Both the position numbers and the translations under genes were made by a program. Positions 5,624 through 9,001 of a stretch of DNA of 39,317 nt are shown here, in pieces. Origin of the DNA: Sphaerochaetaceae bacterium (GTDB lineage: Bacteria; Spirochaetota; Spirochaetia; Sphaerochaetales; Sphaerochaetaceae); the NCBI GenBank assembly GCA_016938475.1, contig JAFGUP010000368.1, positions 1 through 39,317 of the forward strand. The letters run 5' to 3'. Numbering within the stretch: position 1 is the first letter of the stretch; every line of letters starts with the position of its first letter. The notes beneath the pieces are model-generated. The model ran no database searches and was not told where the DNA came from. It was given only the letters and a program-made list of their open reading frames with translations.

Positions 5624-6853
5624 TTACCAGTCAAGGAGTTTCTTGTCCCCGCTGATAGCCTGGATGGGGGCGATGTTCTGTGCAACTTCAACAGTTCCCA
5701 TATATTCTTTTTTCTCGTTTCTTATCGCGAAGTATCGGATGTGTACATACACTTCACCCAGGTGGAGGTAGAACTCGGCCACATCCCGCGCACCGCTCTT
5801 AAAATCGTTCACGATCCGCTCGACGATGTGCACACTGGCAGGTGGATGACAGTTTGCGACTTCTCGTCCGATGATGGCGAGGGTTCTCGGGAAGATCCTC
5901 TCACTTGACTGACTGAAGTAGGCTACCCGGTCATTCTTATCTACGAAGGTGATATCGACAGGCAGGATGTTCAGCACAAGGGTGAGTTCTTCGGGGGTGA
6001 AATGCCCGCTCGGTAGCGTGATGAGTCCTTCGGAGAGTTTGGCTTGTACCTCTTCGCTCTCTTTCTCGGGTTCCCAGGTATGTTCTGATTCAACATAGGA
6101 ATCGGCGAACTCGTCGATCCCATCTGCAATGGTCTTCCACTCATGCGGTGTGAAGATCTCGGAGACCATAGGGATGAGGATGTCGTTCTCCTTGATGATC
6201 ATCTCGGAGATCTTATCCTTCGCAGCAGCGAAATCCGAAACGAAGGTCTCCCGGGTGGTTTCATCGGGACGGCCGGAGTCCATCAATCCATCGAAGGTCG
6301 CTCTGAGCGACTTGACCATACCGCGGATCTCATCATCAACACCCCACATCACCTGAGGGGGGGCTGTGATCCCGTGGTTCTCCATCAGAGGGAACCAGAG
6401 GTTCTCCTTTTTTGCATAGTGGGAATCAAGTTTCTTCAGATCAGTCAATCCGTCCGATAAGCGCTTCAGTGCAGAGATATCTCCACGGGAAAGTGCTGTG
6501 ATATCGGCTTCCAGTGTCTCAAGCAGGTGTGAGATGTGTTCATTCTCCTTCTTGAGGATCCATGCAGGATGACCGAGCGTCTCATCCATCTTCTTCGCAC
6601 CATGGATGTCTGCAACAGAACCATGGACAAGTGCGGAGTGGACGTCACAGAGCCTCTGGACCTCTTCAACGCTCACTTCACCCTCTTCGATGAGTTTCTT
6701 CTCGGCATCGGCTATCTCATCGGCACCGACACCCTCGAAGGCCTCGGCGAATTCCTTCTTCACCGCTTCAAACTCTTCTCCACTGTGAAGTTTTTTGATC
6801 ATATCTTTGAGAAGAGAACTTCTCGTATCGCTATTCTGTATTTCTGCACTCAT
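5624..6853 (-). CDS. DUF438 / hemerythrin / PAS domain protein
   Basis: This 409-residue cytosolic protein has an N-terminal DUF438 helical domain (about 10-90), a hemerythrin-like HHE domain (about 90-240, with HPAWILKKENEHI, DSHYAKKENLWFPL and IIKENDILIP supplying His and Glu metal ligands) and a C-terminal PAS domain (about 290-400, with LPVDITFVDKNDRVAYF and CHPPASV). Proteins of this layout are usually linked to sensing or scavenging NO or oxygen, or to repair of iron-sulfur damage; that role here is inferred. The start at 6853 has AGGAG ten bases upstream and begins at the conserved N-terminus; the ATG at 6925 would read through the palindromic operator. Transcribed alone behind a candidate Crp/Fnr-type site. 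Confidence 0.87.
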   Translation of the reverse strand: MSAEIQNSDTRSSLLKDMIKKLHSGEEFEAVKKEFAEAFEGVGADEIADAEKKLIEEGEVSVEEVQRLCDVHSALVHGSVADIHGAKKMDETLGHPAWILKKENEHISHLLETLEADITALSRGDISALKRLSDGLTDLKKLDSHYAKKENLWFPLMENHGITAPPQVMWGVDDEIRGMVKSLRATFDGLMDSGRPDETTRETFVSDFAAAKDKISEMIIKENDILIPMVSEIFTPHEWKTIADGIDEFADSYVESEHTWEPEKESEEVQAKLSEGLITLPSGHFTPEELTLVLNILPVDITFVDKNDRVAYFSQSSERIFPRTLAIIGREVANCHPPASVHIVERIVNDFKSGARDVAEFYLHLGEVYVHIRYFAIRNEKKEYMGTVEVAQNIAPIQAISGDKKLLDW

Positions 6854-6884
6854 GTCGTGTCTCCTATCCATTCCTGATAATGAT

Positions 6885-6931
6885 AGCATACAACGGACAA
6901 AAAGAATATTCAGTTGCAATTGCAACTGAAT
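6885..6931 (-). promoter_or_regulatory. Crp/Fnr-like palindrome and promoter of the hemerythrin gene
   Basis: A perfect 24-bp palindrome occupies 6908-6931; its core is TTGCAATTGCAA and its outer arms read ATTCAG and CTGAAT. On the minus strand a TATGCT -10 box lies at 6890-6885, predicting transcription from about 6878. The palindrome centre is then at about -41.5, the position used by Crp/Fnr-family class II activators, and it replaces a recognisable -35 box. The regulator is inferred, perhaps an HcpR/DNR-like NO sensor; none is encoded in this window. Confidence 0.6.
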
Positions 6932-6946: not shown

Positions 6947-8854
6947 TCAGGCGAACAGTGATTCAATCTCCTTCTCATACTGTTCTGATATCTTGTGACG
7001 CATAATTTCCTGTTTCGCCGAGAGCTGTTCTCCGACTTTGAAGGAATCGGGAATCAGGGTGAACCGGTTGATTAGCTCGAACGACTTGAAACCGTTCTTC
7101 GAACTGATCAGTTCATTGATCTCGGCCTGAATGAGGGCTCTTACTTCATCGATTTCCACCACATCCTTACGTGTCATGTAGGGAATGCCCTGTTCCTTCA
7201 CGTACTGTTCGATCATCTTGCTGTCGGGAACGATCAGTGCTCCGAGGTATTTCTTGTCCTGACCGACGACCATCACCTGTTCGATGTACTCGCTTTCTCT
7301 CAGACGGGCTTCGAGCGGGACCGGTTCGATATTCTCTCCACCGCTGAGGACGATCGTGTCTTTCGCTCTTCCTCTGATGCCGTACTCGCCCTTGTGGGTC
7401 CAGATCCCGATATCGCCTGTATTGAGGTAACCTTCGTCATTGATGATGGCGCTGGTGAGGTCGGGTCGCTTATAGTAGCCTTTCATCACCTGTTCTCCCT
7501 TGACCCAGATGACACCTTTCTCTCCCGGGGCTGCTTTTTCCCCGTTCTCCTTGATGATCCGGATATCGGTCTCGGGAAGAGGGGAGACGGTCAGAGGGAC
7601 CTGATGGGACAGTTCGCGCAGGCCTATGACCGGTGCTGTCTCGGTCAGGCCGTAGCCGTCAAGGAGTGTGACGCCGATTGCCTTGAAGAATTTGTCGATC
7701 GAGGAGGGAAGAGAGCCCCCTCCCGATACACCTGCACGGAAGCCGGAACCGAACTTCTTCTTGATCGTCTTGAATACAAGGATATCACCGAGGTATTTCA
7801 GAGGGAGTGTGGGTATGAACATCAGAAGTCCGAGGAGCAGGTCTGCCGGGTAGAACCTTCGAGAGAACTGGGGCTTGCGGTTCTGTATACGGGCGATTGC
7901 ATCAGCATGAACTGCTCCGATAAAGACGAAGAAGTGGAACAGTCCTCGCGCAACCGGCGATTTACCTTTCACGTTCTGGTAGACGCCTCCTTTGACTGCC
8001 TCCCATATCCTCGGTACCGAACCCATCCATTGAGGGTTGGTTCTCTGCAGATCGAGGAGCATGATCTTTCCGATGGGTTTTGAATACACGACGGTTGAAG
8101 CCTGTGAGAGGATGACATACTGCAGGATGCGCTCGAACGAGTGCCAGACAGGCAGTACGCTGAGCCATCTTTCACCCTTCTTGAGGTCAATGACCTTAGG
8201 GATCTGTTCCAGCTGGAACAGGAAGTTTCTGTGGGTGAGCATGACTCCTTTGGGTTCACCGGTCGTGCCGCTGGTGAAGATGATCGTAGCAAGGTCATCA
8301 CCTTTACCCATCTCTATCTCCCTTTGAACAAAACCGCCATCATCCTTGAGTCGTTCCCGTCCGGATTGCAGAACATCCTCGATCGTAAGAACCTTCAATC
8401 CTTCCGGGGTGACTGTCTTGTTTTTGCTCGCATGGTGAAAGGTATCCATGATAATCAGGGTCGTGAGTGTGTCAAGGACCGGTGCAAGTGACGAAACCTT
8501 TGCCATCTGCTCTTCGTTTTCTACGAAACAGAGACTGCATTCACTTGTTTTCAGGATGAACTCCAGTTCATGCGGCATCGCGTCTCTTCCACGGGGAACA
8601 TCGATCGCTCCCAGCGAGAGGATAGCCGTATCGGCAAGGAGCCACTCCTTCCTGTTGTCACTTATCAATCCGACATTGTCCGACCGTTTGACCCCCAGAG
8701 CACTGAGTCCGGCTGCGAGCAGTTCGCTGTCACTGGTGAAATCCTTGTAGGTCACAGAGAGAAATGCTCCCTCATCATCCTTATACATCTGCACTGCTGT
8801 GTCGGGGTATTGCGTACTCATGACTCTCAGCAGTTGTGGAATCGTCGTATACAT
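6947..8854 (-). CDS. Long-chain acyl-CoA synthetase-like AMP-forming ligase
   Basis: This 635-residue ANL-superfamily enzyme should activate a fatty acid (or similar carboxylate) with ATP to an acyl adenylate and then to acyl-CoA. The P-loop motif IIFTSGTTGEPKGVMLTHRN lies near residues 195-215, GYGLTETAP near 405, the STGD-like LNTGDIG with downstream R in the hinge near 480-500, and a C-terminal lid ending with a conserved-type GFKSFELINRFTLIPDSF. The length matches FadD15/long-chain types. The start at 8854 has AAGGAG upstream; an in-frame GTG/ATG at 8884 lacks this. It is divergent from the 2-oxoacid oxidoreductase operon, and both share a symmetric promoter region. The substrate cannot be read from sequence. 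Confidence 0.88.
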   Translation of the reverse strand: MYTTIPQLLRVMSTQYPDTAVQMYKDDEGAFLSVTYKDFTSDSELLAAGLSALGVKRSDNVGLISDNRKEWLLADTAILSLGAIDVPRGRDAMPHELEFILKTSECSLCFVENEEQMAKVSSLAPVLDTLTTLIIMDTFHHASKNKTVTPEGLKVLTIEDVLQSGRERLKDDGGFVQREIEMGKGDDLATIIFTSGTTGEPKGVMLTHRNFLFQLEQIPKVIDLKKGERWLSVLPVWHSFERILQYVILSQASTVVYSKPIGKIMLLDLQRTNPQWMGSVPRIWEAVKGGVYQNVKGKSPVARGLFHFFVFIGAVHADAIARIQNRKPQFSRRFYPADLLLGLLMFIPTLPLKYLGDILVFKTIKKKFGSGFRAGVSGGGSLPSSIDKFFKAIGVTLLDGYGLTETAPVIGLRELSHQVPLTVSPLPETDIRIIKENGEKAAPGEKGVIWVKGEQVMKGYYKRPDLTSAIINDEGYLNTGDIGIWTHKGEYGIRGRAKDTIVLSGGENIEPVPLEARLRESEYIEQVMVVGQDKKYLGALIVPDSKMIEQYVKEQGIPYMTRKDVVEIDEVRALIQAEINELISSKNGFKSFELINRFTLIPDSFKVGEQLSAKQEIMRHKISEQYEKEIESLFA

Positions 8855-9001
8855 GTTCTTTCTCCTTTTCGCCACCACTTTCACCTACGATGGACATGTG
8901 ACCGTCAGAGATGTTCTCTTCGAGTCATTGTTTACAAACATATTCTTCTGTGTCAGAAAAAACCGGCTGCGATCTAAAGAATCAACCATTCCGGTCCTCT
9001 A

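Follow-up and report, generated by a model that had tools for sequence, protein, structure and literature searches.

We analyzed a stretch of 39,317 nucleotides from a Sphaerochaetaceae bacterium, hereafter the window, in which a long palindrome separates an acyl-CoA ligase gene from a gene encoding a DUF438-hemerythrin-PAS protein (Table 1). Read along the minus strand, the ligase stop codon (6947-6949) is followed after 15 bp by the palindrome, a T-rich stretch, the hexamer TATGCT and the DUF438-hemerythrin-PAS gene, whose ATG is at 6853.

Table 1. Features of the palindrome locus, and the gene of the candidate regulator elsewhere in the same genome.
Feature	Coordinates	Strand	Description
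Acyl-CoA ligase (AMP-binding) gene	6947-8884	minus	Pfam PF00501, PF23562; upstream flanking gene, not the proposed target
Palindrome ATTCAGTTGCAATTGCAACTGAAT	6908-6931		Perfect over 24 bp
Predicted operator core GTTGCAATTGCAAC	6913-6926	none	Within the 24-bp palindrome
Terminator-like hairpin	6898-6931	minus	10-bp stem, AATT loop, then ATTCTTTTTG; 15 bp past the ligase stop codon
-10-like hexamer TATGCT	6890-6885	minus	29 nt beyond the palindrome centre (6919/6920)
DUF438-hemerythrin-PAS protein gene	5624-6853	minus	409 aa; Pfam PF04282, PF01814, PF13596; proposed target
Crp/Fnr-family regulator gene	G000:C392:21712-22383		In the window's genome (G000), outside the window

The palindrome is the longest perfect one in the window, the next longest measuring 18 bp, and in 100 dinucleotide-preserving shuffles of the window the longest palindrome per shuffle ranged from 12 to 20 bp. 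An earlier reading of the sequence alone had already called it longer than chance and placed it at about -41.5 of the hemerythrin gene relative to TATGCT, and both statements are borne out here: the distance from centre to hexamer is 29 nt, it is kept at 29 or 30 nt in all 11 related loci described below, and it puts the predicted transcript start near 6878, with the palindrome centre at -41.5. The core pattern within the palindrome is GTTGC-N4-GCAAC. The 18-bp palindrome, CTGTTCCAGCTGGAACAG at 8204-8221, is inside the acyl-CoA ligase gene, and 14 of the 100 shuffles reach its length.

The family set comprised 139 genomes, 36 of which encode a protein related to the hemerythrin protein. The closest hemerythrin loci (L011-L021, n = 11) belong to six genera (g1, g5, g6, g9, g19 and g20), and every one of them carries GTTGC-N4-GCAAC, directly 5' of the hemerythrin gene in three g1 genomes and 5' of a short leader gene in the remaining loci; the single leader that was scanned matches DUF1858. 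The core is absent from all 19 hemerythrin loci of g16 (L022-L040) and from all more distant loci, 107 upstream regions having been examined; this count leaves out L041, apparently the same contig as L012, and L099 and L103, which are almost devoid of upstream sequence, and L042 apparently repeats L018. Because the core is missing at the g16 and more distant loci, the regulon claim is limited to the six genera. Several g16 genomes (G100, G109, G110 and others; L022-L040 with L133-L142) have another Crp/Fnr gene, coding for 250 aa, no more than about 2 kb from the hemerythrin gene, which may therefore be under a different regulator there.

The spacing between operator and promoter is also conserved. 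The distance from the centre to a TAnnnT hexamer is 29 nt in nine of the 11 hemerythrin loci and 30 nt in two, a result matched by none of 2000 shuffles, and with one locus per genus it is conserved in 6/6, again with 0/2000 shuffles; the 22-nt spacers between operator and hexamer share only 1-8 bases across loci. Since the -10-like hexamer is 29 or 30 nt from the centre, the operator is predicted to be located at -41.5 or -42.5 in all 11 loci. This geometry is that of a class II Crp/Fnr promoter, in which the operator is centred at -41.5, as it would be here with the predicted starts.

We analyzed the occurrence of the half-site pattern across the same 11 genomes and found 66 sites, against 34 for the reversed pattern. 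Four kinds of gene are preceded by 31 of the 66. Hemerythrin and a Nim-like flavin protein account for 11 each, a Crp/Fnr regulator for 7 and a NapH-like 4Fe-4S protein for 2; the other 35 are not assigned to the regulon. In the window's genome, the exact 14-mer core is unique, with no site at one mismatch and ten at two, and the half-site pattern occurs seven times, four of them before the hemerythrin gene, a nim-cupin pair, the regulator gene and a NapH-like ferredoxin gene. The sequence-only reading had staked its case on a motif that recurs in the genome; taken on the exact 14-mer alone that case would have failed, but with the half-site pattern it did not.

All 11 genomes have the core in front of a nim-cupin(-hcp) operon, in which the Nim-like gene comes first, accompanied by a cupin gene and hcp, and in G021 and G121 by a ferredoxin gene too. 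The hcp gene was found in nine of the 11, always 3' of nim in the same orientation, but neither in the whole assembly of the window's genome nor in G020, where the nim gene is cut off by a contig end. The expectation that the motif would be found near hcp thus applies to the relatives and not to the window's own genome, which retains nim-cupin with the operator (G000:C381, L231 6131-6930) though no hcp was found in its assembly. At the nim promoter, the hexamer is again 29 nt from the centre in 9/11 genomes (0/2000 shuffles), the exceptions being the window's own genome with 25 nt and G088 with 24 nt.

Several further sites were not counted as regulon members. Apart from those named as members, the sites in L153-L164 lie within genes or in hairpins whose loops differ; the 14-mer in L195 equals the regulator operator of G021 and lies where an unrelated gene (MKKVVALLF...) begins; and L200 and L203 showed no match to the NapH-like protein. 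The site in L148 (GTTGCATATGCAAC at 2023-2036, G000:C373), about 30 bp 5' of an AI-2E family transporter gene, occurs in the window's genome only and may be chance.

The candidate regulator is encoded elsewhere in the window's genome and combines a cNMP-binding domain (PF00027) with a Crp helix-turn-helix (PF13545), both over their cut-offs. Eight of the 11 operator-bearing genomes yielded orthologues at 52% identity or more; in G088, G022 and G027, all three of which are fragmented assemblies, none was found. The exact operator lies just upstream of seven of the eight orthologues, the eighth having a mismatch, and the exact pattern is absent at all 12 more distant regulator homologues examined. 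The regulator promoter lacks a hexamer at the 29-nt distance; a -10-like box instead lies a few bases ahead of the operator in most genomes, and this arrangement suggests that the regulator represses its own gene. In two genomes of the window's genus (L145, L146) the contig breaks off some 150-160 bp 5' of the regulator operator, and the third, G088, has no detectable orthologue; perhaps the regulator neighbourhood is hard to assemble in this genus.

The recognition helix of the candidate, VNRSALSRE, places Arg180, Ser181 and Arg185 in CRP numbering, as matched by eye and by alignment. In an alignment of 13 regulators (L165-L172, L174, L183, L269, L274 and L285), C28, C119, C123 and H126 are invariant, the last three forming C-x3-C-x2-H before the long helix, and there is no conserved N-terminal cysteine cluster. 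These four residues are candidate sensor ligands, possibly of a haem, metal or Fe-S site.

To relate the recognition helix to the operator, we used 160 regulator loci, of which 154 were usable and six had no tblastn match at 1e-5, and defined a site as an exact GTTG-N6-CAAC between -120 and +25. Such a site is present at the own promoter of 111 of 126 homologues with Ser or Ala at position 181; 26 of 28 homologues with other helix classes have none, and control windows downstream of the regulator genes contained 0 sites in 152. Among homologues with Ser or Ala181 and Arg185 (n = 45), the inner pair was C/G in 37 and another pair in 1, with no site in 7, and among those without Arg185 (n = 81) it was C/G in 1, half C/G in 13 and other in 59, with no site in 8. 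The inner pair is thus C/G in 37 of 38 sites with Arg185 and in 1 of 73 without it (Fisher test, 3.7e-27, kinship ignored). On a tree of the 111 rows, the residue-185 trait and the inner-base trait each change seven times; independent pairs number seven on the best tree and two on well-supported branches, with none in the opposite direction, and the kinship-corrected test of the association on this tree is not significant. Smaller, earlier tests had given 25 C/G to 2 other with Arg185 (1 without a site) and 0 to 31 without it, and three and four trait changes on a 74-row tree of which 58 rows were counted. Across these promoters, therefore, Arg185 appears to go with the C/G inner pair in a strong association under a weak kinship correction. 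In E. coli FNR, Arg at position 185 goes with T in its site, and we accordingly caution against a universal residue-185 rule.

The promoters of related regulators lacking Arg185 (L173-L184, L239-L378) carry TGTTG-N6-CAACA with T, G or A as the inner base. In a few Pro181 types the palindromes are of the GTAAC, GTAGC or GTATC kind, and in Thr181 types they are GTTACCAAGGTAAC or GTAGC.

The closest described counterpart is HcpR2, which Rodionov et al. (2005, PMC1274295) present as a Crp/Fnr-family protein controlling hcp and ferredoxin genes of anaerobes, with hemerythrin-like genes among its further predicted targets. The same study links the residues at 180 and 181 with bases of the operator and assigns to most HcpR2 proteins the motif GTAACnnnnGTTAC together with Pro181. 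For the HcpR2 proteins of C. difficile and C. thermocellum it notes Ser181 and a distinct motif, drawn in a figure, which may already be GTTGC-N4-GCAAC. The system described here shares with HcpR2 the domain architecture, a palindromic operator of 5-4-5 form, Arg180 matched by G at the corresponding base and predicted targets of the hcp, ferredoxin and hemerythrin-like kinds, hcp with an upstream operator being found in relatives (nim-(ferredoxin)-cupin-hcp, 9/11) and not in the window's genome. It differs in having GTTGC-N4-GCAAC and Ser181 in place of GTAACnnnnGTTAC, with its GTAAC half-site, and Pro181. In the loci examined, hcp does not adjoin the regulator gene in any of the 8 spirochaete orthologues, and among Ser/Ala181 homologues 20 of 59 have hcp inside the retrieved locus. 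Judged on domain architecture, targets and operator, we file the regulator as a variant of HcpR2 and, because of its motif and its Ser181, not as a standard member.

In the available part of its description, the HcpR of Clostridioides difficile (PMC12915319) is likewise tied to a ferredoxin-hcp pair and to nitrosative stress; that text gives only one predicted site among its regulated genes and no operator letters, and does not mention hemerythrin. The FNR/DNR box TTGATnnnnATCAA, as cited in PMC1274295, has the same 5-4-5 geometry and class II position, but its half-site is TTGAT and not GTTGC, the divergence that the sequence-only reading had pointed out, and the candidate here has Arg180-Ser181, with no N-terminal cysteine cluster conserved among the 13 aligned regulators. 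The open-access literature searched contained no GTTGC-N4-GCAAC operator of a spirochaete Crp/Fnr regulator and no paper on DUF438 with hemerythrin, and the available part of a preprint on the Bacteroides HcpR (PMC13370916) gives no operator letters.

We consider it very probable that the palindrome is the operator of this HcpR-kind regulator. The reading draws on the computed observations of a shared operator, a conserved spacing, an autoregulatory site, the content of the regulon and the fit between recognition helix and operator bases. According to it, a dimer of the regulator would bind GTTGC-N4-GCAAC at -41.5, over the place of the -35 box, and would activate the DUF438-hemerythrin gene and, with the same spacing in relatives, the nim-cupin(-hcp) operon, and it would repress its own gene, where the operator is close downstream of the -10-like box in most genomes. 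We infer the binding and the sign of regulation, and by analogy with HcpR the signal would be nitrosative stress (NO or nitrite). The conserved core and spacing, the nim operons and the regulator's own promoter also favour the proposal of the sequence-only reading that a Crp/Fnr activator of the HcpR or DNR kind acts here. Against this stand the three operator-bearing genomes of 11 in which no orthologue was found, the missing hcp in the window's genome and G020, the missing operator at g16 and more distant loci, the 25-nt hexamer at nim in the window's own genome and the terminator-like character of the palindrome. That a different regulator reads the operator, be it another Crp/Fnr protein of the genome or a member of another family, gains some ground from the same three genomes and from the 12 HTH_Crp_2 matches in the window's genome; it is nonetheless improbable, as the operator stands at this regulator's own promoter in 7/8 orthologues and its inner base tracks residue 185 of this protein family.

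A functionless palindrome arising by chance can be practically dismissed: the exact 14-mer is indeed unique in the genome, but the palindrome exceeds the longest of 100 shuffles, and core and spacing are conserved in 11/11 loci. The hairpin calls for closer weighing. It scores as terminator-like at -13.3 kcal/mol (z -6.5, short fold), follows the ligase stop codon at 15 bp and has counterparts in all three genomes of g1, the window's genus (z against shuffles -3.1 in the window, -6.6 and -7.6), each followed by T-rich sequence, so that the palindrome might serve solely as an intrinsic terminator for the acyl-CoA ligase gene. We hold this to be very unlikely, because the 14-bp core is kept in the eight other loci, where the upstream gene is a different one and seven lack a notable hairpin (z above -1.6), the last, L019 (z -5.0), lacking a T-tract, and because a terminator would leave unexplained the recurrence of these letters ahead of nim-hcp and of the regulator gene and the fixed 29/30-nt distance to the -10-like box. 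Rho-independent terminators resemble the palindrome in hairpin and T-rich tail after a stop codon in the window's genus, and differ from it in lacking conserved core letters and a fixed promoter distance. The ligase stop, the hairpin with its T-tract and a possible terminator use had gone unmentioned in the sequence-only reading. Compatible with the HcpR-type operator is a dual use confined to the window's genus, in which the operator would be extended into a terminator that ends the ligase transcript and also controls the hemerythrin promoter. The chances of this appear evenly balanced: the outer stems of the three genomes differ in sequence and still pair, with T-rich sequence behind them, but the stem in the window is AT-rich, its T-tract begins 3-4 nt past the stem, and three genomes are all that bear on the matter.

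We tentatively propose, at slightly less than even confidence, that a large Ser181 HcpR-like branch of spirochaetes and Clostridia reads TGTTG-N6-CAACA, with residue 185 setting the innermost pair, and that in the window's genus the operator is built into the ligase terminator. Within this proposal, Arg185 would demand C/G (GTTGC...GCAAC), and Ser, Ala, Asn, Thr or Lys would relax the inner pair. If true, the published rule for positions 180 and 181 would gain residue 185 as a third position that sets specificity; should the correlation hold, it would add a new position to the Crp/Fnr recognition code and make the operators of many uncharacterised clostridial regulators predictable from sequence. 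If the clostridial motif in the published figure is GTTGC-N4-GCAAC, the motif itself is known, and what is new is the spirochaete regulon and the residue-185 association. For the organism, the analysis names a predicted regulator, operator, autoregulation and transcription start, and it brings the DUF438-hemerythrin-PAS protein and the hybrid cluster protein operon together under one predicted switch, an arrangement suggestive of defence by these spirochaetes against nitrosative or oxidative stress.
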